A DNA stretch of 64,000 nt from Pedobacter segetis (GTDB lineage: Bacteria; Bacteroidota; Bacteroidia; Sphingobacteriales; Sphingobacteriaceae). This document shows, one piece after another, positions 3,778 through 40,435 of this stretch (its first letter is position 1; each line of letters opens with the position of its first letter). The notes under the pieces are model-generated. The model did not search any database and was not told where the DNA came from. It saw only the letters and a list, made by a program, of their open reading frames with translations. The DNA lies in contig NZ_JAEHFY010000013.1 of assembly GCF_016623585.1 (NCBI RefSeq), positions 62,001 through 126,000 on the forward strand, written 5' to 3'. The translations under genes and the position numbers were made by a program.

Positions 3778-4474
3778 AAATAAATTTCCGTTAGCTAAAA
3801 TATTGATCCTGGTAACCATATTAGCGGTTCCAGGATTTTTGTATTATTTACTCCAAGCAAAAGGTAAAAACAGATACAAGCCTTTGCCAATTTTTGGCCC
3901 AAAAGAAGTTGCTGCCACATTCTATACCAAACGTGGTAAAAAAATACCAGACACTATTTATCATCAGATCCCTGCTACCCAATTAATATCTTCAACCGGC
4001 GATTCTATAAATATTAAAGACTTTAAAGGAAAAATTACCGTCGTTAATTTTTTCTATAGTAAAAACAAAAATGTTTTGCCTCAAATTAATGAAGGTCTTT
4101 CTAGTATCTACGATGAGTTTAAGGACAATAAACTGATTAAATTCTTGTCTATCTCTGTAGATCCACGGTCTGATAGTGTTAAAGCTTTAAAGGATTATGC
4201 CAAGGCTTTAAAAGCAAAAAAAGGGAAATGGGAAATCGGTACCGCAGATACATCCATTACCTATCCTTTAATTAGGGATCAATTTTTTGTCAACGTTTTA
4301 CATGATCCTCAAGATACATCTAAATTTATTTTTAGCGATAAATTGATACTTTTAGACGCAGATCAAAGAATTAGGGGCTATTATACCGCTACCTCATTTA
4401 ATGAAATTAAAAGATTGAGTGATGAGATCAAGGTTTTGATAACAGAAGAACTAAGAAAAATTAAATTAGAATAA
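3770..4474 (+). CDS. SCO1/SenC-family protein without copper-binding cysteines
   Basis: A membrane-anchored thioredoxin-fold protein of 234 aa: one N-terminal helix (residues 9-28), then a soluble domain from about residue 65. Family features are present, including GKITVVNFFYS, LSISVDPRSDS and the closing LILLDADQRIRGYY. True SCO proteins deliver copper to the CuA site of subunit II with CxxxC and a distal His. Here the CxxxC position reads SKNKNVLP (residues 97-104), the protein has no Cys anywhere, and no His precedes the LILLDADQ strand. It may be a structural or assembly chaperone rather than a copper donor. It sits inside the oxidase operon and overlaps the subunit IV gene. Confidence 0.8.
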   Translation: MYKNKFPLAKILILVTILAVPGFLYYLLQAKGKNRYKPLPIFGPKEVAATFYTKRGKKIPDTIYHQIPATQLISSTGDSINIKDFKGKITVVNFFYSKNKNVLPQINEGLSSIYDEFKDNKLIKFLSISVDPRSDSVKALKDYAKALKAKKGKWEIGTADTSITYPLIRDQFFVNVLHDPQDTSKFIFSDKLILLDADQRIRGYYTATSFNEIKRLSDEIKVLITEELRKIKLE

Positions 4475-4509
4475 AAAAACCTTAGTGTTTTTAAAATGTT
4501 TGTTGGGTA

Positions 4510-5082
4510 ATGAAAGATAAATTTATTTTTAGATTGATCATCGGGATTTCAATCTTTGTTTTTTTGGTTGTATTGGTTTTAAACCGTAAGATCATCCCAG
4601 TAACCATACAAACTCCAAGTTTCATCTATTTGCTACCTAAGGTAAATGCCATATTAAATGGTACTTGCAGCATTTTATTGCTGATTTCTCTCTATTTTAT
4701 CAAAAACAAAAACATTACGGCTCACAAAAGAACCAATATCATTACTTTTATATTGTCTTCTTTGTTTTTGGTATCCTATATATTGTTCCATTATTTCGCA
4801 CCAGAAACCAAGTTTGGAGATTTAAACCACGATGGTGTTTTAAGTGCACAAGAAATAGTAGCTTCGGGTAATTTAAGATATGTTTATTACGTTATTTTAA
4901 TTACACACATTATTTTGGCCGCGGGGGTGTTACCCTTAATTTTGTTGAGCTTTTTTAGGGGTTTAAAAATGCAGGTAGAAAGACATAAAAAGTTAGTGCG
5001 TTGGAGCTTTCCAATCTGGCTTTACGTAACGGTAACTGGCGTGGTAGTTTATTTAATGATTTCGCCTTACTATAATTTTTAA
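4510..5082 (+). CDS. DUF420 membrane protein with an EF-hand-type loop
   Basis: A 190-aa membrane protein with five or so helices, matching DUF420 proteins that accompany cytochrome oxidase operons. The FHYF helix end, YVYYVILITHIILAA and WSFPIWLYVTVTGVVVYLM segments are the recognisable parts. Between helices 3 and 4, residues 104-115 read DLNHDGVLSAQE, an exact 12-residue EF-hand/dockerin-like calcium loop (D1, N3, D5, G6, S9, E12). A role in oxidase assembly is likely from context and from related CtaM-type proteins in Firmicutes. Calcium binding is an inference. Confidence 0.82.
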   Translation: MKDKFIFRLIIGISIFVFLVVLVLNRKIIPVTIQTPSFIYLLPKVNAILNGTCSILLLISLYFIKNKNITAHKRTNIITFILSSLFLVSYILFHYFAPETKFGDLNHDGVLSAQEIVASGNLRYVYYVILITHIILAAGVLPLILLSFFRGLKMQVERHKKLVRWSFPIWLYVTVTGVVVYLMISPYYNF

Positions 5083-24972: not shown

Positions 24973-25007
24973 CCTTCTCCCTTTAGAGAAGGATTTAGGA
25001 TGAGGCT
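24973..25007 (+). repeat. Dispersed hairpin repeat forming the murG leader
   Basis: CCTTCTC (24973-24979) pairs with GAGAAGG (24986-24992), and the element continues as ATTTAGGATGAGGCT to 25007. Its AGGATGAGG sits just before the murG ATG at 25009 and can act as a ribosome-binding sequence. An in-frame ATG inside the repeat (25000) is an alternative start. Confidence 0.65.
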
Positions 25008-25008
25008 A

Positions 25009-26109
25009 ATGGCAAAAAGAATAATCATAAGCGGAGGCGGCACCGGAGGACATATCTTCCCTGCTATCGCTATAGCCAATGCTTTGAAAAAGCTTGATGC
25101 CAAAACAGAGATTTTATTTGTTGGTGCTTTGGGAAGAATGGAGATGGAGAAAGTTCCGGCCGCGGGCTATCAAATCATTGGGTTAGATATTCAAGGTTTT
25201 CAAAGAAGTGGCTTGGCAAAAAATTTATTGTTGCCATTTAAGATCATTGGCAGCTTGTTAAAATCGTTTAAGATCATCAATAATTTTAAACCAGATGCCG
25301 TGGTTGGTGTAGGGGGCTATGCTTCAGGGCCATTGTTATATGCGGCATCGTTAAAAAAAATACCTTATCTAATACAAGAACAGAATTCTTATGCTGGGGT
25401 AACCAATAAATTCTTAGGTAAATCGGCAAAGAAAATTTGTGTCGCGTTTGATGGGATGAACAAGTTTTTCCCCGCAGATAAAATCATAAAAACCGGAAAC
25501 CCAGTTAGGGAAAATGCTATTGCGGTAGAGGGTAAAAGAGAAGAAGCTATTGAATATTTTGGGCTAGACCCCGATAAAAAAACAATCTTGGTTGTTGGCG
25601 GCAGTTTAGGCGCAGGCACTTTAAATAATAGTATGATGGCCGGGCTCGAAACTTTTAAAGAAAACCAAGTACAATTGATCTGGCAAACAGGCAAATTCTA
25701 TTATAAAAGCATCATCGAAAGATATGGCAATCAATCAAAAGCAGAGGGAATCAGGATTTATGAGTTCTTAGACAGAATGGATTTGGCCTTTGCCATTGCA
25801 GATGTAATTATCTCTAGGGCCGGTGCGGGCACCATTGCCGAGCTTTGTTTGGTGAATAAGCCAGTGGTTTTAGTGCCTTCGCCAAACGTGGCAGAAGATC
25901 ATCAGACTAAAAACGCAAATGCGTTGGTAAGTAAAGATGCCGCTATTTTAATAGTAGATCGCCATGCCGAGTCGGAATTGGTGGATCAAACGATGAAATT
26001 ATTAAGGGACGAGGATAAAATGGTTTCTCTTGCTAATAATATCGCAAAAATGGGTTTGGCCAAAGCCGATGAATTGATAGCTAACCAAGTAATTAATATC
26101 GCAAAATAA
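25009..26109 (+). CDS. murG: Lipid II synthase (N-acetylglucosaminyltransferase MurG)
   Basis: Peripheral membrane GT-B enzyme that transfers GlcNAc to lipid I. The N-terminal GGGTGGHIFPAIAIANAL loop, GVGGYASGP, QEQNSYAGVTNK, the GGSLGAGTLN donor-site loop, SRAGAGTIAEL and PSPNVAEDHQTKNA are all present. The ATG at 25009 (366 aa, MAKRIIISGGG) is preferred; ATG at 25000 inside the upstream repeat would add three residues (MRL). Confidence 0.96.
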   Translation: MAKRIIISGGGTGGHIFPAIAIANALKKLDAKTEILFVGALGRMEMEKVPAAGYQIIGLDIQGFQRSGLAKNLLLPFKIIGSLLKSFKIINNFKPDAVVGVGGYASGPLLYAASLKKIPYLIQEQNSYAGVTNKFLGKSAKKICVAFDGMNKFFPADKIIKTGNPVRENAIAVEGKREEAIEYFGLDPDKKTILVVGGSLGAGTLNNSMMAGLETFKENQVQLIWQTGKFYYKSIIERYGNQSKAEGIRIYEFLDRMDLAFAIADVIISRAGAGTIAELCLVNKPVVLVPSPNVAEDHQTKNANALVSKDAAILIVDRHAESELVDQTMKLLRDEDKMVSLANNIAKMGLAKADELIANQVINIAK

Positions 26110-27465
26110 ATGATGGATTTGAATAACATAAAACGAGTTTACCTGATCGGTATAGGCGGGATCGGGATGAGTGGGCTCGCTCGTTATTTTCATCAAAAAG
26201 GATACCTGGTTTGCGGCTATGATAAAACACCAACGGGCCTTACACAGTCTTTAATGAAAGAAGGTATCTGTATTTCTTATGAGGATGAGGCAGATCTTAT
26301 CCCTATATCTTTCCAAAAGAAGGATAATGAAACGCTGATCGTTTATACACCCGCCATCCCTTTAGACAGCAAAATCCAAAAATATTTTAAGATTAATGGT
26401 TTCGAGCTTTATAAGCGTTCCCAAGTTTTGGGGATGATATCTAAAGGTTTGTTTACCATCGCCGTAGCCGGAACGCATGGCAAAACCACTACAAGCAGCT
26501 TGATCACACATCTATTAAAATGCGGGGATATTGATTGTTCTGCATTTTTGGGAGGTATCGCAACCAATTACAATTCTAATCTTTTGATCGGTAAAAGCGA
26601 TGTATTGGTGGTTGAAGCAGATGAGTTTGACCGTTCTTTTTTAACGCTACATCCAGATTTGGCGGTTATCACTTCTATGGATGCCGATCATTTGGATATT
26701 TATGGGGCAGAAGAACAATTACATGAATCTTTTCTGCAGTTTGCAAAGCAGGTAAAAGATAAAGGCGGATTAATTTATAGGGAAGGGTTAAACCTTGAGA
26801 ATGGTACAACTTACGCTTTATCATCATCGGCGAAAGCCAAAGGATTAAATGTAAGAATTGAGGATGGCATCTTCTTTTTCGATTTTGAAAATGAAAACAC
26901 CAGCATAAAAGATCTAGAATTAGGCTTGCCGGGGAAACACAACGTAGAAAATGCGGTTGCTGCGGTAGAAATTGCGTTAAAAATGAAATTGAATGTTGAT
27001 CAAATAAGATTAGGATTATCTTCATTTAAAGGAGTAAAACGCAGGTTTGAGTATCATGTAAAAGCTGAGAGAATTTACATTGATGATTATGCACACCATC
27101 CGGCCGAGTTAAAAGCTTGTTTTGAGGCTGTAAGGTCATTATACCCAAATAAGAAACTGACGGTTATTTTTCAACCGCATCTTTTCTCTAGAACAAGAGA
27201 TTTTGAACAAGATTTTGTAAAAGTCTTAAACACGGTTGATGAATTGATTTTATTGGACATCTACCCTGCAAGGGAGAAACCGATCATAGGTGTTAGCAGC
27301 CAGGTTTTGGCCAATCAGATGGATAGCGATAAGGTAAGGGTTTGTGGAAAAGAAGAAACGCTAGAAATTATCAGAAATGAAAACCCACCGCTACTTTTAA
27401 CGGTTGGTGCGGGCGATATCGATACTTTGGTTTTACCTATCAAAAACGTAATGAACCATGTTTAA
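26110..27465 (+). CDS. murC: UDP-N-acetylmuramate:L-alanine ligase
   Basis: First Mur ligase, adding L-Ala to UDP-MurNAc. Of 451 aa: IGIGGIGMSGLARYFHQKG at the N-terminus, ATP loop AVAGTHGKTTTSS, VVEADEFDRSF, ITSMDADHLDIYG, RRFEYH, DDYAHHPAELKA and the FQPHLFSRTRDF block. It starts directly after the murG stop; a second ATG at 26113 is equally possible. In this phylum murC normally stands next to ftsQ, as here, and the ends overlap by 8 bases. Confidence 0.97.
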   Translation: MMDLNNIKRVYLIGIGGIGMSGLARYFHQKGYLVCGYDKTPTGLTQSLMKEGICISYEDEADLIPISFQKKDNETLIVYTPAIPLDSKIQKYFKINGFELYKRSQVLGMISKGLFTIAVAGTHGKTTTSSLITHLLKCGDIDCSAFLGGIATNYNSNLLIGKSDVLVVEADEFDRSFLTLHPDLAVITSMDADHLDIYGAEEQLHESFLQFAKQVKDKGGLIYREGLNLENGTTYALSSSAKAKGLNVRIEDGIFFFDFENENTSIKDLELGLPGKHNVENAVAAVEIALKMKLNVDQIRLGLSSFKGVKRRFEYHVKAERIYIDDYAHHPAELKACFEAVRSLYPNKKLTVIFQPHLFSRTRDFEQDFVKVLNTVDELILLDIYPAREKPIIGVSSQVLANQMDSDKVRVCGKEETLEIIRNENPPLLLTVGAGDIDTLVLPIKNVMNHV

Positions 27466-28324
27466 ACGTATCAATTGGAAAGCGGTAGGGATTATGTTTG
27501 TTTGGCTTTTAAGCCTTTCTGGCGTAATTACTTTGATGAGTTTTATCAAAATAAAGAAAGCAGAAAACACCTGCCAAAAGGTAGAAGTAATATTGCCCGG
27601 CAACCAGTTTTTTGTAGAGCGGGCAGAGATTGATGATATATTAAAAGATAAAAATGGTTTGTTGGTGGGTAGGCGTTTAGAGAATATCAATATCCAAAAA
27701 TTAGAAGATAAATTAAAGGCCAACCCATTTATAGAATATGCGAAAGTATATATAGATATGGATGGGGTACTTCATGCTGATGTTAAGCAAAGGGTACCTG
27801 TTTTAAGGATTTTGAACATGGTTGGGCAAGATTTTTACGTTGATCAAAATGGTTTAAAAATCCCTTTATCAGATTACTTTACCGCAAGGGTTTTGGTGGC
27901 TAACGGTGCAATATTAGAAAGTTATAACGATAAAATAGATACTTTAAAAACACAGGTGGCAAAAGATTTATTTACAACCGCCAAGTTTATAGATGCAGAT
28001 AGTTTATGGAGCAGGCAAATTGTACAGATTTATGTTAACAACCAAAAAGACATGGAGTTGGTGCCAAGGGTAGGGAAGCAAAAAATAATTTTGGGCAATG
28101 CAGATTTAATTGATGAGAAGTTTAGAAATCTCCTAATTTTTTATAAACAAGCTATACCAAAAGTTGGCTGGGACGCTTACAGTACCATAAACTTAAAATT
28201 TAAAAATCAAATTGTTTGTGTAAAAGCAGATTCTACTTTAATAAAAAAGAAACCTATCGAGATAAAGCCCGATAGTGCAGCAAACCAAATTATATCAAAA
28301 GATTCAACAAATAATATATACTGA
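27458..28324 (+). CDS. ftsQ: FtsQ-like cell division protein
   Basis: A 288-aa bitopic protein: a short cytoplasmic N-terminus, one helix (about residues 8-27) and a periplasmic part with a POTRA-like segment (about residues 40-110, including VERAEIDDIL and IEYAKVYIDMDGVLHADVKQRVPVLRI). It links the cytoplasmic division ring to the septal synthases through FtsL and FtsB. Similarity is moderate; synteny between murC and ftsA supports the call. The last 25 residues are low-complexity and charged. Confidence 0.9.
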   Translation: MFKRINWKAVGIMFVWLLSLSGVITLMSFIKIKKAENTCQKVEVILPGNQFFVERAEIDDILKDKNGLLVGRRLENINIQKLEDKLKANPFIEYAKVYIDMDGVLHADVKQRVPVLRILNMVGQDFYVDQNGLKIPLSDYFTARVLVANGAILESYNDKIDTLKTQVAKDLFTTAKFIDADSLWSRQIVQIYVNNQKDMELVPRVGKQKIILGNADLIDEKFRNLLIFYKQAIPKVGWDAYSTINLKFKNQIVCVKADSTLIKKKPIEIKPDSAANQIISKDSTNNIY

Positions 28325-28326
28325 TC

Positions 28327-29670
28327 ATGGAAAAAAGTATAACCAAACCATCAAAAAGCTCATCTATAGTTGTAGGGCTAGATATTGGCACAACAAAAAT
28401 TTGCGTTATCGTTGGCAGGCGCAATGAGCATGGTAAAATCGAAGTTTTAGGTTTGGGCAAGGCCGAATCCGCTGGCGTTACCAGGGGGATCGTTTCTAAT
28501 ATTGCCAAAACCGTGAAAGGAATTGTACAAGCGGTAGAAGAAGGTAGTGCCCAATCTAATGTGGATGTTAAAATAGTGAACGTTGGTATTGCAGGCCAAC
28601 ACATTAAAAGTTTACAACACAGGGGTATTTTAACCAGAAAAGATTTAAGCAACGAAATCTCTAAAAGAGACATCGATAAATTGATAGACGATATGTACAA
28701 ACTGGCCATGAACCCGGGCGAGGAGATCATACACGTTTTACCTCAAGAGTTTACGGTTGATAACGAGCCAGGGATAAAAGATCCCGTGGGCATGGCGGGA
28801 GTAAGGTTAGAGGCAAACTTCCATATCATTACAGGCCAGGTTACGGCAATCAAAAACATCATGAAATGCGTAGATCAAGCCAGCTTAGAAACCCAAGACC
28901 TAATTTTAGAGCCTTTGGCATCCTCAGAATCTGTATTGAGCGAAGAAGAGAAAGAGGCGGGGGTTGTTTTGGTTGATATTGGCGGCGGTACAACAGATGT
29001 GGCCATTTTCCATGAAGGCATCATCAGGCATACTGCCGTTATCCCTTTCGGGGGAAATAGCGTAACCGAAGATATTAGGGAAGGTTGCTCTGTAATGCGC
29101 AACCAAGCAGAATTGTTGAAGGTAAAATTTGGATCTGCCTTGGCAGAAGAAAATAAAGAGAACGAGATTATTTGTGTGCCGGGTTTAAGAGGCAGGGAAC
29201 CTAAAGAGATTTCTGTAAAAAACTTGGCATTTGTGATCCAAGCCAGGATGGAAGAAATTATAGACCATGTACATTACGAGATTAAATCTTCTGGTTATGA
29301 GAAAAAACTGATCGGCGGTATAGTGGTAACTGGTGGTGGCGCATTATTGAAACATCTGCCACAATTAATTGAGTATGTAACAGGTTTAGATTGTAGGGTT
29401 GGTTATCCAAATGAGCATCTGGCTAAAAACGAGACTTTATCAAAGAACATTTATGAAGATCTAAAAAGCCCGATGTATGCCACCGGTATTGGCTTGTTGA
29501 TCAAGGGGATTGAAAAAGAAGAGCTAAACTCGCAATTAGAAAACAGGCCAGCTAAAAAAATAGATGCGGTAGAAACACCCCGCAAAAACAGAGGGCTGTT
29601 TGCTTCATTGTTAGAAGGCACCAAAAAATTCATTAAGGATGATATATCCGACCAGGATTTTTTAAAGTAG
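28327..29670 (+). CDS. ftsA: Cell division protein FtsA
   Basis: Actin-like ATPase that tethers FtsZ filaments to the membrane. Of 447 aa: phosphate 1 motif VGLDIGTTKICVIVG, the 1C domain (about residues 90-170), VDIGGGTTDVAIF, and the adenosine motif GGIVVTGGGALLKHLP. The C-terminal tail (about residues 395-447) ends in a basic amphipathic stretch (RKNRGLFASLLEGTKKFIK) that fits membrane targeting. It starts 2 bases after ftsQ. Confidence 0.96.
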   Translation: MEKSITKPSKSSSIVVGLDIGTTKICVIVGRRNEHGKIEVLGLGKAESAGVTRGIVSNIAKTVKGIVQAVEEGSAQSNVDVKIVNVGIAGQHIKSLQHRGILTRKDLSNEISKRDIDKLIDDMYKLAMNPGEEIIHVLPQEFTVDNEPGIKDPVGMAGVRLEANFHIITGQVTAIKNIMKCVDQASLETQDLILEPLASSESVLSEEEKEAGVVLVDIGGGTTDVAIFHEGIIRHTAVIPFGGNSVTEDIREGCSVMRNQAELLKVKFGSALAEENKENEIICVPGLRGREPKEISVKNLAFVIQARMEEIIDHVHYEIKSSGYEKKLIGGIVVTGGGALLKHLPQLIEYVTGLDCRVGYPNEHLAKNETLSKNIYEDLKSPMYATGIGLLIKGIEKEELNSQLENRPAKKIDAVETPRKNRGLFASLLEGTKKFIKDDISDQDFLK

Positions 29671-29730
29671 TTTTCAACATGGCGTAAGTTTTCCACACAA
29701 TTAACATTTGTGGAAAACTAATGTGGAAAA
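29671..29730. promoter_or_regulatory. DnaA-box-like cluster before ftsZ
   Basis: Within the ftsA-ftsZ spacer, TTTTCCACA (29689-29697) and inverted TGTGGAAAA at 29709-29717 and 29722-29730 each fit the relaxed DnaA-box consensus TTWTNCACA. TTTTCAACA (29671-29679) is one base off. The inner pair extends to a perfect 11-bp inverted repeat, AGTTTTCCACA with TGTGGAAAACT, with an 11-base spacer. An alternative reading is an RNA hairpin, or an operator for another dimeric regulator. Confidence 0.55.
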
Positions 29731-29796
29731 TTATTTAATATTACGGGTAGATTAAGTCAGATTAAAATAAAAACTTACTAACTGATAATTAAGGAT

Positions 29797-31431
29797 ATGC
29801 AGTTTGAAATGTTAAAAGAAAAGTCATCCATCATCAAAGTAATTGGTGTGGGCGGTGGCGGTGGTAATGCGGTAAACCACATGTACAGGCAAGGAATTAC
29901 AGGTGTAGATTTTATTATCTGTAATACCGATGCGCAAGCTTTAGAGCTAAGCCCAATCCCTAATAAGGTGCAATTGGGTGCTAGTTTAACAGAGGGTATG
30001 GGAGCAGGTTCTATCCCGGAAGTGGGTAAAAACTCTGCAATAGAGAATATCGACGATGTGAAGGAAATGCTGGGCGCAAACACCCGCATGCTTTTTATAA
30101 CAGCAGGAATGGGCGGCGGCACCGGAACCGGGGCAAGTCCTATTATTGCCAAAGCGGCAAAAGAATTAGATATCCTTACTGTTGCTATAATTACAACTCC
30201 GTTTTCTTTTGAGGGCAAACGTAGAAAAATGCAAGCCGAAGAAGGTTTGGAAGAACTGAAAAAATATGTAGATTCTTACTTGGTTATCTCTAATGATCGC
30301 CTACGCGAGATATTTGGCAACCTAACTTTAGGTTCTGCATTTGGCCAAGCCGATGATATTTTAACTACCGCTGCAAAAGGGATTGCAGAAATCATTACCG
30401 TTCCCGGTTATATAAACGTGGATTTTAAAGATGTGCGTACCGTAATGAAAGATAGCGGTGTAGCCATTATGGGCAGTTTTTCTGCCGAAGGCGAAAACAG
30501 GGCTTTAAGAGCGGTTGAAGGGGCTTTGGCTTCTCCATTATTAAAAGATAACGAGATTGAAGGCGCAAGATATATCTTGTTGAATATCAGCTCTGGAGAT
30601 AAGGAAGTAACCATGGATGAGGTTAGTATCATCACAGATTTTATACAAGAACAAGCAGGCCTTTCTGCCGATTTAATTTGGGGAAATTGTACCGATCCAG
30701 AATTGGGAGATAATGTTTCCGTAACCATTATCGCTACTGGTTTCCAAACGCAAGAAGAAAGAGAGCAAAGCAAGCAAAGTGCACCAAAGAAACAATTCTT
30801 AACAACAGATACTCCTTTGATAAGGCCAATAAATGAGTTCTCTAAAAAAGTAGAGCCAATTGTTGAGAAGGAAGAAAATCAGCCGGTTGTTTTAGCAAAA
30901 GACGAAGAGGCCAAAAAACAAGCCGACTTATTTGCAGAGATTCCGTTTGTATCTGCAAAGCAACAAACAGAAGAAAAATTAGAAGATGTGGTTAAGCATC
31001 AGTTGTTTGATTTAGAAAAGGAAGAAGAACAAGAAACAGAAACAGATAACTTTGGTTTCAGCATGAAACTTTCTGAATCTGAATTTGCACAACCATTAGC
31101 TCAGCTTGAAGAAACACAAGAAGAAGAAGAAGAGGAGGAGGAAGTTATCACTGCTAGTGTTGATGATCACAAAACCGATGAATCTATGGAAGAGCAATTG
31201 CGCAAATCTAAAGAACGTATTTTACGCCTTAAAGATTTAAGCATGAAGTTGCGTTCTACCTCTGGCTTGCAAGAACTAGAGAACGAACCTGCTTATAAAA
31301 GAAGGCAAACACAGCTAAAGGAAGTACCGCATTCTTCAGATTCTCATGTTTCTAGGTTTACTTTAAGCAATGAAGATGGCCAAACAGAGATAAGGCAAAA
31401 CAATTCTTTTTTACATGATAATGTAGATTGA
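29797..31431 (+). CDS. ftsZ: Cell division protein FtsZ
   Basis: Tubulin-like GTPase that forms the division ring. The GTPase core covers about residues 10-320: IGVGGGGGNAVNHM, NTDAQAL, the signature GGGTGTGASPIIA and TTPFSFEGKRR, DDILTTAAKGI. At 544 aa it is much longer than the E. coli protein. The extra 200 or so residues form a low-complexity, Glu-rich linker (a run of eight Glu near residue 435) before a basic region and tail. A 126-base spacer with inverted repeats separates it from ftsA. A terminator follows. Confidence 0.97.
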   Translation: MQFEMLKEKSSIIKVIGVGGGGGNAVNHMYRQGITGVDFIICNTDAQALELSPIPNKVQLGASLTEGMGAGSIPEVGKNSAIENIDDVKEMLGANTRMLFITAGMGGGTGTGASPIIAKAAKELDILTVAIITTPFSFEGKRRKMQAEEGLEELKKYVDSYLVISNDRLREIFGNLTLGSAFGQADDILTTAAKGIAEIITVPGYINVDFKDVRTVMKDSGVAIMGSFSAEGENRALRAVEGALASPLLKDNEIEGARYILLNISSGDKEVTMDEVSIITDFIQEQAGLSADLIWGNCTDPELGDNVSVTIIATGFQTQEEREQSKQSAPKKQFLTTDTPLIRPINEFSKKVEPIVEKEENQPVVLAKDEEAKKQADLFAEIPFVSAKQQTEEKLEDVVKHQLFDLEKEEEQETETDNFGFSMKLSESEFAQPLAQLEETQEEEEEEEEVITASVDDHKTDESMEEQLRKSKERILRLKDLSMKLRSTSGLQELENEPAYKRRQTQLKEVPHSSDSHVSRFTLSNEDGQTEIRQNNSFLHDNVD

Positions 31432-31483: not shown

Positions 31484-32170
31484 TTATGCTTTACCTTTTT
31501 CTAGCGCAGAAAATGCTAGGTTTTCTAAAAATGCTCTCACAAAACCTAGGCTCTCTTCTTTTGACGAGTCGGTTAAAGAAGGTAGGTTTCTCATAAAAAA
31601 ATCTTGAAAGTGCGCCATTTCTATTAATGTGCTAGATAAAGAGCGTGGGTATGTATAATTTGGGTTATAAGATAGTATAACATCGCTAATACGCTGACAG
31701 AGATTTTTGTAAGGTTTAAATAATTGTTCTTTGTTATCTTCAGAAACATGCTTTGTCAAATATACCTTAGATGCTTCTGCGATAATAATTTCATGAAGGT
31801 CTTCTAAATTGATGTCGTGGATACTGCTTTGGTTCTCTTCTAATTGCCAGGTCAATATCTTTATGATGGTCTTTATTTTTATGGAGGCATCGGCAACGTT
31901 ATTGGTATTAAAAAGCACCTGATAATCTAACCAATGCCAATACCAAGACACAATGTAGTTTAATAAACGGTGCTTGTTTTCAAAATAACGATATATGGTA
32001 GCTTCTGTAGTACCAATTTCTTCCGCCAATTTTTTAAAGGTAAAGGCCTCAAAACCAATTTTCCTTATTAGGTACGTTCCTTTGATGATAATACGCTTTC
32101 CAATCTCGCTCTGCTCGGGATCTTTCAGATAAAGCTTGCCGTTCATTTTAGGATGTAACTGCCACTCCAT
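31484..32170 (-). CDS. TetR/AcrR-family transcriptional regulator
   Basis: A 228-aa regulator with an N-terminal TetR helix-turn-helix: IIIKGTYLIRKIGFEAFTFKKLAEEIGTTEATIYRYFENKHRLL is readable in overlapping parts at about residues 27-70. An all-helical ligand/dimerisation domain follows. It is divergent from the ABC exporter operon with 125 bases between, so it probably controls that operon and itself. The ligand is unknown. Confidence 0.87.
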   Translation of the reverse strand: MEWQLHPKMNGKLYLKDPEQSEIGKRIIIKGTYLIRKIGFEAFTFKKLAEEIGTTEATIYRYFENKHRLLNYIVSWYWHWLDYQVLFNTNNVADASIKIKTIIKILTWQLEENQSSIHDINLEDLHEIIIAEASKVYLTKHVSEDNKEQLFKPYKNLCQRISDVILSYNPNYTYPRSLSSTLIEMAHFQDFFMRNLPSLTDSSKEESLGFVRAFLENLAFSALEKGKA

Positions 32171-32222
32171 AAATTCCTATCTTTTGCTGCAAATATATAT
32201 CTTTTCGACATAAAATTAAGCG

Positions 32223-32277
32223 TTACTTTTGTTTGTGATAGTAATGCTATTAATAGTAAAAGTAATTTATATCTTTG
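32223..32277. promoter_or_regulatory. Candidate exporter promoter and TetR operator
   Basis: TATCTTTG at 32270-32277 matches the Bacteroidota -7 consensus TAnnTTTG, 19 bases before the exporter ATG. Upstream lie an outer inverted repeat, TTACTTTT (32223-32230) with AAAAGTAA (32258-32265), and a smaller inner one, ATAG-N5-CTAT. On the opposite strand TATATTTG (32190-32197) could serve the regulator gene. The operator assignment is inferred from position and symmetry. Confidence 0.35.
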
Positions 32278-32295
32278 TAAGATAGCTATACCAAC

Positions 32296-33972
32296 ATGAC
32301 GGATAAACAATCATTAAGAGCTGCAATTAAAAAGCTATTTCAATTGATCAATCTCGAAAAGAACGAGATTAAAAATGTTTACATCTATGCCGTTTTAAAT
32401 GGGGCAATAATATTATCGCTTCCTTTGGGTATCCAAGCTATTATAAACTTAATGTTTGGGGTTACCATAAGCACCTCTTTAGTGGTAATGATCGCCTTGG
32501 TTATTTTTGGGGTTTTCATGAATGGTGTTTTTCAAATTAAACAAATGAGGGTAATAGAGAATTTGCAACAGCGCATTTTTACCCGGTTAACCTTTTCTTA
32601 TGCTTACCGCATCCCCAAGATCGATTTGTTAAGCATCGATAAATATTATCTGCCAGAATTGGTAAATAGGTTTTTTGATACCGCCAGTTTGCAAAAGGGC
32701 CTTTCTAAATTACTGTTAGATTTACCAACAGCTACCATCCAAGTACTTTTTGGGCTTATATTATTAGGCTTTTATCATCCCATATTTATATTATTTGGGG
32801 TTTTACTCTTAATTATCGGTGTGGTTATATTTTATATGAGCAGCTCAAAAGGATTTACTAGCAGCATCCAAGAGTCGGATTTTAAGTATCAAGTAGCCTA
32901 CTGGTTAGAAGAAATTAGCAGAAGCATCAAAACCTTCAAATTTAACCAAAAATCAGACCTGCACTTAAAAAAAACAGATGAATTGGTAAAGGGCTATCTC
33001 GATTCTAGAAACCAGCATTTTTCTGTTTTGATATTTCAATATCGGGTAATCATTGGCTTTAAGGTAATCATAACGGCGGCGATGTTGATCGTTGGCGCTT
33101 TTCTTTTTATCAACCAAATCATTAACCTTGGCCAGTTCATAGCCACAGAGATCATTATTATAACCATCATCAACGCCATAGAAAAATTGATCGTTAGTTT
33201 AGAGGTGGTTTATGATGTATTAACATCGTTAGAGAAAATAAACAAGGTATTGGATAAGCCTCAAGATAATGAAAATGCTTTGATCGGCCTTAAAAACTGG
33301 CCAAAAACAGCAGGTATAAAAATTACCGCTAAAAACTTAAATTTTGGATATGGCGAAGACGGTTTGGTGCTAAAAGATTTGAATTTATCTGTTGAGGCGG
33401 GAGAAAAAATATGTATCAAAGGTTTTGAAGGATCGGGTAAATCTACGTTGATAAAAGTTTTAACCGGTATGTGGCCAAATTATATCGGACAGTTAACTTA
33501 TAATGACATACCTCTTAGTAACCTATCACAAGGGATTTTACATAAAGAGGTAGCGTTTTACCTAAGTGAGGACGAACTTTTTTCTGGGACTATATTAGAA
33601 AACATTACGGTTGGCGATACCGATGTGAACATAGATGAGTTGCAAAAAATAATAAGCTTGGTAGGCCTGTCTGATTTTGTTAACACGAAACAAAAAGGGC
33701 TTGATACTTTGATCGATCCGCAGGGTAAAAGATTATCTTTCAATGTTGCAAAAAAGATATTGATTGCGAGGTGCTTATTTAAAAAACCTTCGTTGATGCT
33801 AATAGAAGGAGGCTTTTCTGGTATAGATCAACTATCAAAAGTTAAAATAGAAAACCACTTGGTATCCAAAAATAATCCCTTAACACTTATTGTTATCAGT
33901 AATGATGATATTTTTTCTGCCAAGTGCGATAAGGTTTTTAGCATGAATAGCGGTAACATCAAAATTGTTTAA
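32296..33972 (+). CDS. Type I secretion-like ABC exporter with a degenerate ATPase domain
   Basis: A 558-aa half-transporter: six predicted helices (about residues 30-300), then a nucleotide-binding domain. No peptidase C39 domain is present. Walker A is intact (GFEGSGKST, 376-384). The other motifs are changed: the Q-loop position is Glu (YLSED, 422-426), the signature LSGGQ is LSFNV (480-484), Walker B with catalytic Glu reads LMLIEGG (500-506), and the H-loop His is Asn (VISND, 533-537). The D-loop survives as SGID. With HlyD and TolC genes behind it, this is a tripartite export system for an unknown substrate, but energy coupling is in doubt. Confidence 0.88.
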   Translation: MTDKQSLRAAIKKLFQLINLEKNEIKNVYIYAVLNGAIILSLPLGIQAIINLMFGVTISTSLVVMIALVIFGVFMNGVFQIKQMRVIENLQQRIFTRLTFSYAYRIPKIDLLSIDKYYLPELVNRFFDTASLQKGLSKLLLDLPTATIQVLFGLILLGFYHPIFILFGVLLLIIGVVIFYMSSSKGFTSSIQESDFKYQVAYWLEEISRSIKTFKFNQKSDLHLKKTDELVKGYLDSRNQHFSVLIFQYRVIIGFKVIITAAMLIVGAFLFINQIINLGQFIATEIIIITIINAIEKLIVSLEVVYDVLTSLEKINKVLDKPQDNENALIGLKNWPKTAGIKITAKNLNFGYGEDGLVLKDLNLSVEAGEKICIKGFEGSGKSTLIKVLTGMWPNYIGQLTYNDIPLSNLSQGILHKEVAFYLSEDELFSGTILENITVGDTDVNIDELQKIISLVGLSDFVNTKQKGLDTLIDPQGKRLSFNVAKKILIARCLFKKPSLMLIEGGFSGIDQLSKVKIENHLVSKNNPLTLIVISNDDIFSAKCDKVFSMNSGNIKIV

Positions 33973-33973
33973 T

Positions 33974-35308
33974 ATGTTCTTACAAACTAAAGCAAATACC
34001 GATAAATTGATGGAATTTGATTCTTTTGCGAAGGTAATCAAAGAAAAAAAATCAAACAGTTTGGTAACTATATTTACCATTGCCCTAATTTGTAGCGTGG
34101 TTGTTCTATGTTTACCTTGGACACAGAACATCAAGTCTAAGGGCAGTGTATCTACATTAAGTCCAAACCAAAGACCGCAACAGATCAACAGCATTATTGC
34201 CGGGAGGATAGAAAAATGGTATATCCAAGACGGGCAGTATGTGAAAAAGGGAGATACATTGTTGAGGATCAGCGAAGTTAAGGAGGATTATCTTGACGAA
34301 TCTTTACTGGCTAGGGTTGAAGACCAGATAAAAGCTAAAACAGAAGCCATAGATTTTTATGATCAAAAAGCAAATACTGCGGTTCGGCAACAATCGGCAT
34401 TAAAATTATCTTTAGATTTTAAATTGCAACAGATCCAGAACAAGTTAAAGCAATTCAACTTAAAAGTAGAATCGGATAGCATAGCTTTAATTGCCGCTAC
34501 AAATCAATATAAAATAGCTAAAGAACAGCTTAACAGGCAAAAGCAAATGTTTGATGCAGGCTTAAAATCTTTAACAGATCTAGAGCAAAAGCAACAATAT
34601 TTACAAGATGCGCTATCCAAAAAAATAAGTGCAGAAAGCAAATTTTTTAATACAAAAAATGAGTTGTTAAACATAAGGTTAGATCTATTGGCAGCACAGC
34701 AAGAATATTCAGAAAAAATATTAAAAACAGCAGGAGATAAATTTACCGCGTTATCTCAAGTTTCTGCCACAGAGGGCGAAGTTGCAAAGCTGAAAAACCA
34801 ATATGCCAACTATAAAAAACGACAAGGTTTTTATATCATTACCGCACCTCAAAATGGGCAAGTATTGCGATCGGTAAAAGCTGGCATTGGCGAAACGGTT
34901 AAAGATGGTGAGCCACTGATGCAGATTGTACCTACCGAGTTTGAGCCTGCGGTAGAAATGTTTATCAACCCTTTAGATCTGTCTTTAATAAATATCGGTG
35001 AGAAAGTTCAAATCCAGTTTGATGGTTTTCCCGCCATTGTTTTTTCTGGCTGGCCAGAGGCATCTTATGGTATTTTTGAAGGTAAGGTGGTTGCTATTGA
35101 TCAATCTATAAATAAAAACGGGCAATTTAGGGTTTGGGTTTCACCGGGTGGGAAAAAACCATGGCCAAAAGAAATAAGATATGGATCTGGGACCAAAAAC
35201 ATCACTTTGTTAAAGAATGTACCCTTAGGGTATGAGCTTTGGCGGCAGATAAATGGTTTCCCACCAGATTTTTATGAATCTCCTAAAGCAGATAAAGATG
35301 AAAAGTAA
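33974..35308 (+). CDS. HlyD-family periplasmic adaptor
   Basis: Membrane fusion protein of 444 aa from the ATG at 33974, which lies 1 base after the exporter stop. A single inner-membrane helix (about residues 28-48) is followed by a biotinyl/lipoyl-like half (INSIIAGRIEKWYIQDGQYVKKGDTLL), a long coiled-coil hairpin (about residues 115-280), the second lipoyl half (GFYIITAPQNGQVLRSVKAGIGETVKDGEPLMQIVP) and a beta-barrel domain. It would connect the inner-membrane exporter to the TolC-like channel. Its end overlaps the next gene by 11 bases. Confidence 0.9.
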   Translation: MFLQTKANTDKLMEFDSFAKVIKEKKSNSLVTIFTIALICSVVVLCLPWTQNIKSKGSVSTLSPNQRPQQINSIIAGRIEKWYIQDGQYVKKGDTLLRISEVKEDYLDESLLARVEDQIKAKTEAIDFYDQKANTAVRQQSALKLSLDFKLQQIQNKLKQFNLKVESDSIALIAATNQYKIAKEQLNRQKQMFDAGLKSLTDLEQKQQYLQDALSKKISAESKFFNTKNELLNIRLDLLAAQQEYSEKILKTAGDKFTALSQVSATEGEVAKLKNQYANYKKRQGFYIITAPQNGQVLRSVKAGIGETVKDGEPLMQIVPTEFEPAVEMFINPLDLSLINIGEKVQIQFDGFPAIVFSGWPEASYGIFEGKVVAIDQSINKNGQFRVWVSPGGKKPWPKEIRYGSGTKNITLLKNVPLGYELWRQINGFPPDFYESPKADKDEK

Positions 35309-36689
35309 ACTAATCTATTTAGCGTTATCTTTTTTTTGGTTTTTACCTTTAAGGGCACAACAGGCAGTAGATACTTTAAGCTGGTCAGGTTTTTTCAATA
35401 TCATCAAAAAATACCACCCTATAAGCCAACAAGCCAATTTGTTAGTAGATCTGGCGAAAGTGAAAAGGACAAAAGCATTGGGCGGTTTTGATCCTAAGAT
35501 CGAGGCAGATTTTGACCAAAAATATTACGACGGCACAGAATACTATACTTTTTTTACCCCACAGATAAAATTGCCTTTATGGTATGGTGTAGAATTAAAA
35601 GGCTCTTACTCGCAGGCAGAAGGGGCTTACTTAAATCCAGAGAGTAAGTTGCCAAAGCAAGGTTTAAGCTATGTTGGTATCAACTTTAATGTTGGTAAAG
35701 GTTTGTTTATTGATGAGAGAAGGGCGGCAATTAAGCAAGCTAAAATATTTGAACAATCATCGCAAAACGAAAAGCGCAAAATATTAAACGATCTGTTTTT
35801 AGAAGCGGCAACTAATTATATAGAATGGTACAATAACTATAAAATTACCCAGATACATAAAGAAGCATTAAGCTTAGCAAAAACACGTTTTGATGCCGTA
35901 AAAACCGGTTTTAAAAATGGCGATAAACCTGCAATTGATACCGTTGAGGCTCTATTGATGGTGCAACAAAGGGAAGGTATGCTACAACAAGCCCAACTAG
36001 AGCTGCAAAATTCAAAATTAATGCTCTGCAACTATCTATGGTTACAAAACAACCAAGCCGTTGATGCAAACAAATTATACATTGTCCCCCCGGATTCTTT
36101 GGATATACCTCTAAATGCTGATCTACAAACCAGTAACAACCCTAAATTATTGAGCTACGAATTTAAGATCAACGATTTAAATGTGGAGAGAAGGCTGAAG
36201 GCAGAAAGTTTGAAACCTGAACTGGGTTTGCAATTAGGGGTACTTAACCAGGGGAAATCTTTATTGAGAAATATAAATGGTAATTATTGGCAGGATAACA
36301 ACAAGGTCAATATCCGTTTTTCATTTCCGCTAACGTTTGCAAAAGCAAGAGCTGACCTTGCCGAAACAAAGATTAAAATAAGGCAAACCCAACTAGAACA
36401 AGATATGGTAAGGAACGAGTTGGTTAATAAAATGAGGCAAAACAATTTTGAGATCCTCACGCTCCAAAACCAAGTGAATATCTTGAACCAAACCTACAAA
36501 TCTTCTATGCAACTATTAAACGGAGAGGAGCTAAAGTTCAAATTTGGCGATAGTTCATTGTTTTTGATAAATTCTAGGGAAAGCAAGCTGATAGAAGTTA
36601 GGGAAAAGCTGTTGGCAACGGAAGCAAAACTGAAAAAATCCAAAATTAAAACAATTTGGCTGGCCGGCAATCTGTACTTAAATATTTAG
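35298..36689 (+). CDS. TolC-family outer-membrane efflux protein
   Basis: Outer-membrane channel component, 463 aa from the ATG at 35298, which gives a clean signal peptide (MKSKLIYLALSFFWFLPLRAQ). Two outer membrane efflux repeats form the helical barrel (for example KRTKALGGFDPKIEADFDQ and LAKTRFDAVKTGFKNGDKPAID). It is the last gene of the exporter, HlyD and TolC unit, and its start overlaps the HlyD gene by 11 bases. No strong terminator was found in the 198 bases that follow. Confidence 0.88.
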   Translation: MKSKLIYLALSFFWFLPLRAQQAVDTLSWSGFFNIIKKYHPISQQANLLVDLAKVKRTKALGGFDPKIEADFDQKYYDGTEYYTFFTPQIKLPLWYGVELKGSYSQAEGAYLNPESKLPKQGLSYVGINFNVGKGLFIDERRAAIKQAKIFEQSSQNEKRKILNDLFLEAATNYIEWYNNYKITQIHKEALSLAKTRFDAVKTGFKNGDKPAIDTVEALLMVQQREGMLQQAQLELQNSKLMLCNYLWLQNNQAVDANKLYIVPPDSLDIPLNADLQTSNNPKLLSYEFKINDLNVERRLKAESLKPELGLQLGVLNQGKSLLRNINGNYWQDNNKVNIRFSFPLTFAKARADLAETKIKIRQTQLEQDMVRNELVNKMRQNNFEILTLQNQVNILNQTYKSSMQLLNGEELKFKFGDSSLFLINSRESKLIEVREKLLATEAKLKKSKIKTIWLAGNLYLNI

Positions 36690-36887: not shown

Positions 36888-37667
36888 ATGGAAGAGACAC
36901 AACAACCCGTCATCGGCATAAAAAACCTAAGTAAAAACTACGGAGAAAAACAGGTGTTAAAAGGTATAAACCTAGAGGTTTATCCGGGGCAGGTAATTGG
37001 TTATATTGGGCCAAACGGAGCGGGAAAATCTACAACCGTTAAAATTTTAACGGGTTTGGTAAATGATTTTGATGGAGAAGTTTTGATGTACGGTAAAAAT
37101 ATCAAGGATGACATCATCAGCATAAAAAGCCAGATTGGTTACGTACCAGAAAATGCCGAGATATATGATGTGCTTACTCCTTTAGAATATTTGGATTTTA
37201 TAGGTAAACTGTATGGCATGGATGAAGATGCCATTGCAACAAGAGCAACTAAACTTTTGAACGCTTTTGGCATTGGCGCAAATGCAGACCAACGCATGGA
37301 TACTTTTTCTAAGGGGATGCGCCAAAAGGTGTTGCTCATTTCTGGGATTATCCATAACCCAAAGATCATCATCTTAGATGAGCCACTCTCTGGTTTAGAT
37401 GCAAATGCCGTGATCATGGTTAAAGAACTTATATCCCTGATGGCCAAGGAGGGGAAAACCATTTTTTACTGCTCGCACATGATGGATGTGGTAGAAAAAG
37501 TATCTGATCGTATTTTATTGATCAATAATGGAGAAATAGTAGCAGATGGCACTTTTGAAGATTTAAAAGCCGGTGGCGATCAAACCTTAGAAAATATCTT
37601 TGCAAAACTCACAGGCAAAGAAGAAGGAAATAAAGATGCCTCAGATGTGTTAAGCGCTTTAAATTAA
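36888..37667 (+). CDS. ABC transporter ATP-binding protein (ABC-2 type)
   Basis: A 259-aa cytoplasmic ATPase with canonical motifs, in contrast to the exporter upstream: Walker A GPNGAGKSTT, Q-loop IGYVPENAEIYD, signature FSKGMRQKVLL, Walker B IIILDEPLSGLD and H-loop YCSHMMD. The family moves lipids, polysaccharides, drugs or peptides with an ABC-2 permease. The next gene (54 bases downstream) encodes a large membrane protein that is the likely permease. The substrate is unknown. Confidence 0.92.
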   Translation: MEETQQPVIGIKNLSKNYGEKQVLKGINLEVYPGQVIGYIGPNGAGKSTTVKILTGLVNDFDGEVLMYGKNIKDDIISIKSQIGYVPENAEIYDVLTPLEYLDFIGKLYGMDEDAIATRATKLLNAFGIGANADQRMDTFSKGMRQKVLLISGIIHNPKIIILDEPLSGLDANAVIMVKELISLMAKEGKTIFYCSHMMDVVEKVSDRILLINNGEIVADGTFEDLKAGGDQTLENIFAKLTGKEEGNKDASDVLSALN

Positions 37668-37721
37668 TAATTAGGCTACTTAAAACATGTTACTTACAAC
37701 TTAAAATTTTCTACGTTTCAA

Positions 37722-39410
37722 ATGTTCAATAAATATATCATCAATTTTGTTCTTTTATTAAAACCCATTTTCCAGAAATTTGGGGTAGATCCAGAACAGC
37801 TTAGGATTATTTTAATAACTAAAATGAAAATGGACGATCGCCGTCCGAATGTGTACAACCAAAGGCAGAAAAAGAAAAAAGAAGTTAATAATGCCAGTTG
37901 GATAGTGATGTTTTTCTTGGGCCTTACGGGTTTGTTCTTCACATTTTTATTGGCATCCTTAAAGCAGCCATTTTTGGCGCATACCGTTTATTTCTCGGCC
38001 TTTATGGTAATGTTGGCCATTACCTTAATCTCTGATTTTACAAATGTGTTGATAGATGTGAGGGATAATTACATCATTTTGCCCCGCCCTGTAAACGACA
38101 GGACTTTTACCGTTTCTCGGATTTTACACATAGGTATCCATACGGCAAAAATGGCCTTCGCTATCTCTATATCGGGCGTTATTTACTCTTTTATTGGCGA
38201 AGGAGTATTATCGGGATCGATGTTTATTATTGAAGTTTTAATAGCTACAACACTAAGTATATTCTTAGTGAACATTACTTATTTGATAGTTTTAAAAATC
38301 ACAAGTCCTCAAAAATTTAAGGATTTTATATCTTATTTTCAGATCATTTTGTCTATCGTGATTTTTGCGGCCTATTATACCTTGCCTCGGTTAATAGAAT
38401 CAAGTTTAATAAAAAAAATAGATATTTCTAATGTTAAGGTTTTAGCAATTGTGCCTTCCTATTGGTTGGCGGCATTGCATGAGTTGGTCGTGAACATAAA
38501 AATAGCACAACTTTCCACCTATATTTATGCCGCATTAGCTATTTTATCACCAATAGTTTCTTTGTATTTGGTAGTGAAGGTTTTAGCACCGGGTTTTAAT
38601 CAGAAATTATCTTCCATAAGTGCTAGTGGCGATGATGGTGTTGTGGTTTCATCAGAAGGTAAAGGTGCATCTAAAGGATTTATGAATATTATTGCCCAAA
38701 AAATTGCCCCACATCCTTTAGAAAATGCAGGCTTTAAGATTACTTGGTTATTATCTTCACGCTACCGCGATTTTAAGGTAAAGGTGTATCCTTCATTTGC
38801 TTATGTCCCGGTTTATTTTGTTTACTTCGGTTTTATCAATAAAAAAGGAGGAAGCTTATCAGATAACTGGCATCATTTATTAGAAGGTAGGATGTACATT
38901 TTGTTGATGTACCTAACAGGTTTTGTGTTGACTACAGTTTTGCAACACATCAGCATGACAGAGAAATACAAAGCTTCGTGGGTGTTTTTTACCACACCAC
39001 ATAACCAACCAGGGAGAATTTTAGGCGGTATGTTTAAAGCTGTAGTTATAAAATATTATCTACCTTATTTTATAGCGATAGGTATCTTCAGTATCACTTT
39101 CTGGGGACCAGCTGTAATTAACGATTTAATTTTGGTTTTTATGGTTGGCACACTCTATGGTTTGTTGGTTGCGCTTTTCCAGGTAAAGGGCTTCCCGTTT
39201 TCTCAGCCTCCAAACAACCAAAAAGGAGGGAAAATGTTTATCACATTTTTGATAATGGCAGTACCGGCAGGTTTAGGGTTCTTACACTATTGGGCAGCAC
39301 AATGGGAAACAGCCATTTGGATAGCCGCCGTAACCATGACGGTTATTGCATGGACCTGTTTTAATTACTACCGTAAAGAAAGCTGGGAAAGTATGGAGTT
39401 GGCAGAATAA
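37722..39410 (+). CDS. Probable ABC-2 permease, large membrane protein
   Basis: A 562-aa polytopic membrane protein with about 12 hydrophobic segments. The N-terminal 60 residues are hydrophilic and Lys/Arg-rich (KMKMDDRRPNVYNQRQKKKK). Conserved permease motifs are not obvious, so the assignment rests on topology and on the ATPase gene 54 bases upstream. A long extramembrane section around residues 300-360 (SASGDDGVVVSSEGKGASKG) separates the two helical halves. The substrate is unknown. Confidence 0.72.
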   Translation: MFNKYIINFVLLLKPIFQKFGVDPEQLRIILITKMKMDDRRPNVYNQRQKKKKEVNNASWIVMFFLGLTGLFFTFLLASLKQPFLAHTVYFSAFMVMLAITLISDFTNVLIDVRDNYIILPRPVNDRTFTVSRILHIGIHTAKMAFAISISGVIYSFIGEGVLSGSMFIIEVLIATTLSIFLVNITYLIVLKITSPQKFKDFISYFQIILSIVIFAAYYTLPRLIESSLIKKIDISNVKVLAIVPSYWLAALHELVVNIKIAQLSTYIYAALAILSPIVSLYLVVKVLAPGFNQKLSSISASGDDGVVVSSEGKGASKGFMNIIAQKIAPHPLENAGFKITWLLSSRYRDFKVKVYPSFAYVPVYFVYFGFINKKGGSLSDNWHHLLEGRMYILLMYLTGFVLTTVLQHISMTEKYKASWVFFTTPHNQPGRILGGMFKAVVIKYYLPYFIAIGIFSITFWGPAVINDLILVFMVGTLYGLLVALFQVKGFPFSQPPNNQKGGKMFITFLIMAVPAGLGFLHYWAAQWETAIWIAAVTMTVIAWTCFNYYRKESWESMELAE

Positions 39411-39460: not shown

Positions 39461-40435
39461 ATGGAAGAATTAAAATTTATCGATTTGTTTTGTGGTATTG
39501 GCGGGTTTAGGGTTGCCATGGATCAAGCCTGTAGAGAAAATAATATTATTCCAAATTGCGTTTTTTCATCTGATATTGATAGATCTTGCCAAGATAGTTA
39601 TGAGGCTAATTTTGGCGATAGACCGCATGGGGATATAACAGAAATTGATGCAACATCAATACCAGATCATGATATTTTATATGGTGGCTTTCCTTGTCAA
39701 CCATTCAGTATCATTGGCCAGATGAAAGGATTTGAGGATACTAGGGGCACTTTGTTTTTTTATATTGCAAACATCATCAAACAAAAAAAACCTAAAGCCT
39801 TTGTTTTAGAAAATGTTAAACAGTTAGTAGGCCATAATGAGGGTAAAACTTTAAAAGTTATTATTAAAACTTTAAAAGATCTAGGTTATCATGTACAATA
39901 TACCGTTTTAAATGCTTTAGATTACGGCTTACCTCAAAAGAGAGAACGAGTTATTATTGTTGGGCATAGGGAGCCCATTTTGTTTTCTTTTCCTTCTCCA
40001 ATACGCCCCTTTAAGCCACTCGAGTTAATATTGGAGAAAAAAGTAGATAGGAAGTATCTCGCTTCTGATTATATTAAACAAAAGAGGTTTGAAAAGCATA
40101 AATCAGCATATAAACTTTCCATTTGGCATGAGAATAAATCAGGGAATGTTTGTTCTTATCCTTATTCATGTGCTTTAAGGGCGGGGGCTTCTTATAATTA
40201 TTTGTTGGTTAATGGCGAAAGACGCTTAACACCTAGGGAAATGTTTAGATTGCAAGGATTTCCCGATAGTTATAAAATAATTGTAAATGACTCTCAAGCA
40301 AGAAAACAAGCTGGAAATGCTGTACCGGTTAATTTGGTTAAAGCTGTGATATCTAAATTATTGCCTTATGTAGCCAAGTCTTTAGATATGAAATTAGTTT
40401 TTAACGAATATGAATTAGAATCACCAGCTACATAA
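39461..40435 (+). CDS. C5-cytosine DNA methyltransferase (Dcm/HhaI type)
   Basis: Methylates cytosine at C5 in a specific DNA sequence. The motifs appear in the usual order: I, DLFCGIGGF (residues 8-16); IV with the catalytic Cys, GGFPCQPFS; VI, FVLENVKQL; VIII, LPQKRERVIIVGHR; IX, RRLTPREMFRLQGFP; X, QAGNAVPVNLVKAV. The target-recognition region between VIII and IX is short, giving 324 aa. The site it recognises cannot be read from sequence. There is no recognisable restriction gene beside it, so it looks like a solitary methyltransferase, probably acquired, inserted before rimM. Confidence 0.95.
   Translation: MEELKFIDLFCGIGGFRVAMDQACRENNIIPNCVFSSDIDRSCQDSYEANFGDRPHGDITEIDATSIPDHDILYGGFPCQPFSIIGQMKGFEDTRGTLFFYIANIIKQKKPKAFVLENVKQLVGHNEGKTLKVIIKTLKDLGYHVQYTVLNALDYGLPQKRERVIIVGHREPILFSFPSPIRPFKPLELILEKKVDRKYLASDYIKQKRFEKHKSAYKLSIWHENKSGNVCSYPYSCALRAGASYNYLLVNGERRLTPREMFRLQGFPDSYKIIVNDSQARKQAGNAVPVNLVKAVISKLLPYVAKSLDMKLVFNEYELESPAT

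Follow-up and report, generated by a model that had tools for sequence, protein, structure and literature searches.

The importer SbmA, which is driven by protons, has been proposed to derive from a YddA-like ABC transporter, and to our knowledge it is the one well-studied case of a natural change from an ABC transporter to a gradient-driven one. SbmA is built on an ABC transmembrane domain (TMD), has lost the nucleotide-binding domains (NBDs) together with the coupling helices and is driven by protons by way of a glutamate ladder (PMC13316013). The membrane domain of LmrA on its own performs ethidium-proton symport, and the LmrA ion current is started by the binding of ATP, not by its hydrolysis (PMC6155054). 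The complex of the haemolysin system is made up of three HlyB dimers and six copies of HlyD (PMC11026475). The exporter considered here is encoded in a window of 64,000 nucleotides, the whole stretch of Pedobacter segetis DNA that was analysed, in an operon with the following features.

31484..32170, minus strand: divergent gene for a TetR-family regulator (Pfam), with relatives at about half of the family loci
32171..32295, no strand assigned: divergent intergenic region, presumed by inference to hold the operator/promoter
32296..33972, plus strand: exporter ORF of 558 aa with an ATG start and an uninterrupted frame; TMD at about residues 1-325 (helices at 22-54, 60-108, 119-160, 162-209, 222-272 and 278-319) and degenerate NBD at about 341-558
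33421..33447, plus strand: Walker A motif GFEGSGKST of the exporter, residues 376-384, the sole catalytic NBD motif retained
33965..35308, plus strand: membrane fusion protein of the HlyD type, listed with a TTG start; its gene overlaps the 3' end of the exporter gene
35253..36689, plus strand: TolC-like outer membrane efflux protein (OEP; Pfam)

A preliminary description of this DNA had recognized a full-length frame within a regulated exporter/HlyD/TolC operon, and both the open 558-aa frame and its TetR, HlyD and TolC neighbours are confirmed. The context was scored at 80 loci of the exporter's family that have at least 3.2 kb of downstream flank. A HlyD gene and then a TolC gene follow the exporter in 80/80, the HlyD gene lying no more than 300 bases away in 79/80. 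Clustering of the neighbours identified HlyD, TolC and, often, TetR as the only conserved companions, and at the same 80 loci, all with full downstream flanks, it yielded no conserved linked ABC partner gene. Upstream of the window exporter no convincing operator palindrome was found, only a weak one (73%). Directly before the operon (window positions 25000-31431) lies a murG-murC-ftsQ-ftsA-ftsZ cluster of cell-wall and division genes, named by sequence resemblance. Downstream, and outside the conserved operon, are an ordinary ABC-type ATPase (Walker A GPNGAGKST) with a membrane protein (36888-39410) and a C5-cytosine DNA methyltransferase-like gene (39461-40435), for which a restriction partner is not obvious among the nearby listed ORFs.

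The window exporter is matched by the Pfam models ABC_membrane (E 2e-9) and ABC_tran (E 1e-17). It passes no curated NCBIfam cut-off for T1SS ATPases, the best match, TIGR03375, scoring 166 bits and thus far below its cut-off of 693.1, and no C39 domain was recognized. AlphaFold2 predicts a complete exporter in which the NBD, too, is folded (pLDDT 88.5, pTM 0.80), a six-helix exporter TMD being fused to an NBD fold that is absent from the NBD-less relatives described below. The top Foldseek matches include the cysteine-free core of PCAT1 (TM 0.90) and HlyB in HlyB/D (TM 0.88). Reading of the motifs bore out the initial observation that Walker A is intact and that all of the other catalytic motifs are changed. 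The Q-loop is VAFYLSEDELF, with Ser in place of Gln; the signature position reads KRLSFNVAKK and is without SGG[QE]; Walker B is LMLIEGG, with Asp changed to Glu and the catalytic Glu to Gly; and the switch is VISNDDIF, with Asn in place of His.

These changes are not private to the strain, the circumstance that would have told against the preliminary description. Homologs of the window exporter occur in 14/17 genus mates, at 55-76% identity, and the family is shared across the class, being present in 213/396 sampled Bacteroidia genomes. Scanning of a species-level genome collection returned at least 561 relatives, and, wherever the record gives a name at phylum rank, the 80 kept loci belong to Bacteroidota. 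Motifs were counted in a first set of 116 distinct members and in the whole set of 158 relatives, from Bacteroidota. Alignment of these exporters, as the preliminary description proposed, revealed that the changes are conserved, the canonical signature being found in 0/158. Within the first set, LSGG is present in 0/116, the switch His in 2/116 and the Q-loop Gln in 4/116, while the Walker A Lys is retained in 110 of the 113 members that align there. The earlier statement that a homodimer would have no normal ATPase site is likewise correct. What replaces the motifs is itself patterned: Walker B Asp is Glu in 87/116, the catalytic position is Asp, Glu or Asn in 100/116, and the altered signature follows [LI][SP]x[STN], or S/P-x-S/T/N-I/V. 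A match to LSGG in one member (L037) falls outside the alignment, a little ahead of the pseudo-signature position, and was put down to chance. Nine ordinary exporters, eight of them from the window genome, served as controls; in these the motifs are present, in places slightly altered (LSVGQ, MSTGQ, LSGGE and, at Walker B, one DD).

In members that belong to other Bacteroidota classes, Walker A and the DE of Walker B are retained, as for the most part is the switch His, and the Q-loop Gln and the canonical signature are missing; this has the look of the same erosion at an early stage. On this evidence, hydrolysis in the absence of a canonical signature may have been the ancestral condition. 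Some members, including most of those from the other classes, have an N-terminal extension of 160-240 aa (L022, L025, L027 and L037; L143-L152), for which the examples tested gave no Pfam match. Among the open-access papers searched, none was found to describe the family, which would not in itself make it new.

Two groups of relatives have no NBD. Eleven are TMD-only proteins of 334-361 aa (approximately 340 aa); the genes for HlyD and TolC come next, overlapping or a short gap apart, in an operon that contains no NBD gene. In eight genomes, a single frame of 746-784 aa runs from the TMD through a short linker into a full HlyD, again with no NBD; the TolC gene comes next, and in most a divergent TetR gene lies ahead. 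A model of the fusion comprises six transmembrane helices, a loop, the HlyD transmembrane helix and the HlyD hairpin. ICL1 and ICL2 are the carriers of the coupling helices. The fusions have shortened forms of these NBD-docking loops, and in the TMD-only members the loops are more polar. The ICL1 motif ELVNRFFD is still conserved in the TMD-only members, which would allow for some cytoplasmic partner there. In further members, an NBD remnant without Walker A persists. Four candidates reaching or lying near contig ends (L135, L173, L180 and L183) were excluded as possible truncation artefacts, and one other (L156/L195) was left out of the TMD-only set on account of a separate, overlapping NBD ORF of 216 aa. 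At L195 (3406-6483), TMD and NBD occupy separate overlapping frames, with the NBD ORF (4398-5045) between TMD and HlyD; the gene may truly be split, or the arrangement may reflect a frameshift or an error of assembly.

A tree of the TMDs (168 rows) places the family as one clade against the ordinary exporters, recovers the TMD-only group and the fusion group as one clade each (both 100) and implies several losses of Walker A. On the TMD alone, a joint NBD-less clade was not rejected (p-AU 0.49), whereas with TMD and HlyD concatenated (83 rows) it was rejected (p-AU 0.003, log-likelihood difference 98), in trees that were quick, have some long branches and, for TMD plus HlyD, are without most of the outgroup-class members, for which the script paired no HlyD. 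The latter tree puts the two NBD-less groups in separate clades, and on this result the NBD was lost at least twice. Closest to the TMD-only clade among the rows with an NBD are L022 and L037, two degenerate paralogs from one genome (G074). That the NBD is dispensable in this family is well supported by the sequences.

Where the NBD remains, it is under constraint. In close pairs with usable dS, dN/dS is 0.02-0.17 for the NBD and 0.01-0.06 for the TMD, and one very close pair has zero NBD replacements; as judged from these ratios, both domains are under purifying selection, which is weaker on the NBD. Decay private to one strain is ruled out by these values together with the family-wide conservation. 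In 99.5% of 5886 family pairs the TMD is the better conserved of the two domains, compared with 0% of 36 pairs of ordinary exporters, so that the usual order of conservation is, in these alignments, reversed.

The TMD has 14 near-invariant charged or polar residues (E88, Q133, K134, K138, S194, K197, Y198, Y234, R238, E285, E296, K297, D307 and K314), which are common to the NBD-bearing members from Bacteroidia, the TMD-only members and the fusions and are mostly absent from ordinary exporters. Position 88 is Glu or Asp in all forms. With ideal helix geometry, E285, E296, D307 and K314 lie on one face of TM6, within 40 degrees, their depth in the membrane being judged from the helix limits. 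The charged residues could serve in gating or in assembly with HlyD instead of proton transfer.

On balance it seems probable that the family forms tripartite exporters in which ATP hydrolysis is not the source of energy, the TMD dimer transports and the drive probably comes from an ion-motive force. We infer this drive from the conserved TMD residues, the shortening of ICL1 and ICL2 and the precedents of SbmA and LmrA. The exporter would be the inner-membrane part of an exporter-HlyD-TolC system descended from the ABC exporters of type I secretion, and transport would be carried out by the TMD dimer. The NBD of the window species, with its P-loop kept, would probably bind ATP without hydrolysing it and act as a structural or regulatory clamp, whereas in sister lineages Walker A would have disappeared from it, or the whole domain would have been deleted or have given way to a direct fusion with HlyD. 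The likeliest driver would be the proton motive force, acting via E88, K134, K138, K197, R238, E285, E296, K297, D307 and K314. For the window protein itself, the lack of hydrolysis, the binding of ATP and the coupling to protons are all read from such features, and retention of the Walker A Lys in most members suggests that nucleotide still matters wherever the NBD is present. The substrate is probably small and sensed by the TetR regulator. The preliminary description had also entertained hydrolysis of ATP by another route; NBD-less members could not hydrolyse ATP at all, and the part of that idea that finds support is that energy comes from elsewhere.

Other readings of the retained NBD have to be weighed against this. 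Non-hydrolytic binding of ATP might hold the two NBDs closed and the TMD in a single state, so that the exporter is gated by ATP and not driven by it, its substrate leaving downhill through HlyD-TolC with no coupling to ions. The 110 of 113 members with the Walker A Lys and the purifying selection on the NBD fit such a role, and in other exporters degenerate sites retain ATP for minutes and are structural in function (PMC7756269); we consider it unlikely all the same, for the NBD-less members could make no use of ATP and charged TMD residues so strictly conserved suggest that the mechanism is energised. The preliminary description raised the idea of pairing with an active half-transporter, and an NBD supplied in trans would have a similar effect. 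Degenerate sites are indeed common in heterodimeric exporters (PMC7756269), there are eight other TMD-NBD exporters in the genome and ELVNRFFD is kept even where the NBD is gone. Those eight exporters are ordinary, however, and no conserved linked ABC gene accompanies the family at the 80 loci. Since one and the same chain has lost the signature and the Walker B and His residues, neither composite site of a heterodimer would be intact. The genes for exporter, HlyD and TolC form a self-sufficient unit, NBD-less members occur in otherwise unchanged operons, and the docking loops have been shortened (fusions) or are more polar (TMD-only members). Together these make a heteromer distinctly improbable, though an unlinked partner is conceivable.

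Slow hydrolysis by means of the substitutes, with Glu for the Walker B Asp, Asp, Glu or Asn as the catalytic residue and an altered signature, would account for the patterning of all three and for the DE and, mostly, His of the outgroup members. It has to contend with the Gly at the catalytic position and the Asn at the switch of the window protein itself, and with the repeated loss of Walker A and the loss of the whole NBD on at least two occasions; we rate it as more doubtful again than the heteromer. The loss of most catalytic motifs could finally be the mark of a decaying pseudo-exporter with no transport function. The selection data already contradict this: frames are full length, dN/dS is well below 1, the operon is conserved throughout the class and 213/396 genomes possess the family, so that decay is scarcely credible.

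A wider proposal, for which we see about an even chance, is that, in a class of tripartite exporters spread throughout Bacteroidota, an ABC-type TMD has been turned into a secondary pump driven by ions. The series would run from a partly degenerate NBD to an ATP-binding pseudo-NBD, to an NBD without the P-loop and to two independent complete losses, one of them by direct fusion of TMD and HlyD. The family would preserve, side by side in living bacteria, many intermediate stages between ATP-driven and gradient-driven transport. If true, it would represent the second natural conversion of an ABC transporter to a secondary transporter, after SbmA, and a class of energisation for tripartite pumps beyond ABC, RND and MFS. 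It is found in more than half of the sampled Bacteroidia genomes, its three-gene operon is movable and testable, and hundreds of genes probably carry a misleading automatic annotation as 'ABC transporter ATP-binding protein'.

With the exporters of T1SS, such as HlyB, LssB/LapB and PCAT1, the family shares the TMD-NBD fold and the operon with HlyD and TolC, but it is without the catalytic ATPase motifs and its NBD is optional; the fusions impose one TMD per HlyD (1:1), in agreement with the stoichiometry of the haemolysin complex. A degenerate NBD that retains Walker A is likewise seen in the heterodimeric exporters TM287/288, TAP, MRP1 and CFTR. There a second site is competent, whereas in the present family a single chain lacks all the other motifs and has no evident partner. 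The likeness to SbmA/BacA (SLiPT) lies in an ABC exporter TMD, conserved transmembrane glutamates and coupling-helix regions that are reduced or lost, here in the fusion clade. It extends to the loss of the NBD only for the TMD-only and fusion relatives, as the window protein has an NBD. The glutamate ladder of SbmA finds a possible counterpart in the conserved E88/E285/E296/D307, for which proton coupling is surmised. Unlike SbmA/BacA, these are exporters with HlyD and TolC, many keep a dead NBD and no TM0 was seen; their origin is apparently separate, in that they match T1SS/NHLM models, the trees having been built without YddA/SbmA sequences. The membrane domain of LmrA offers the parallel of an exporter TMD that works without its NBD on ion gradients, as may be the case in this family, but that domain is a laboratory truncation of an active ATPase, whereas the loss of the NBD here is natural and has become fixed in whole lineages.
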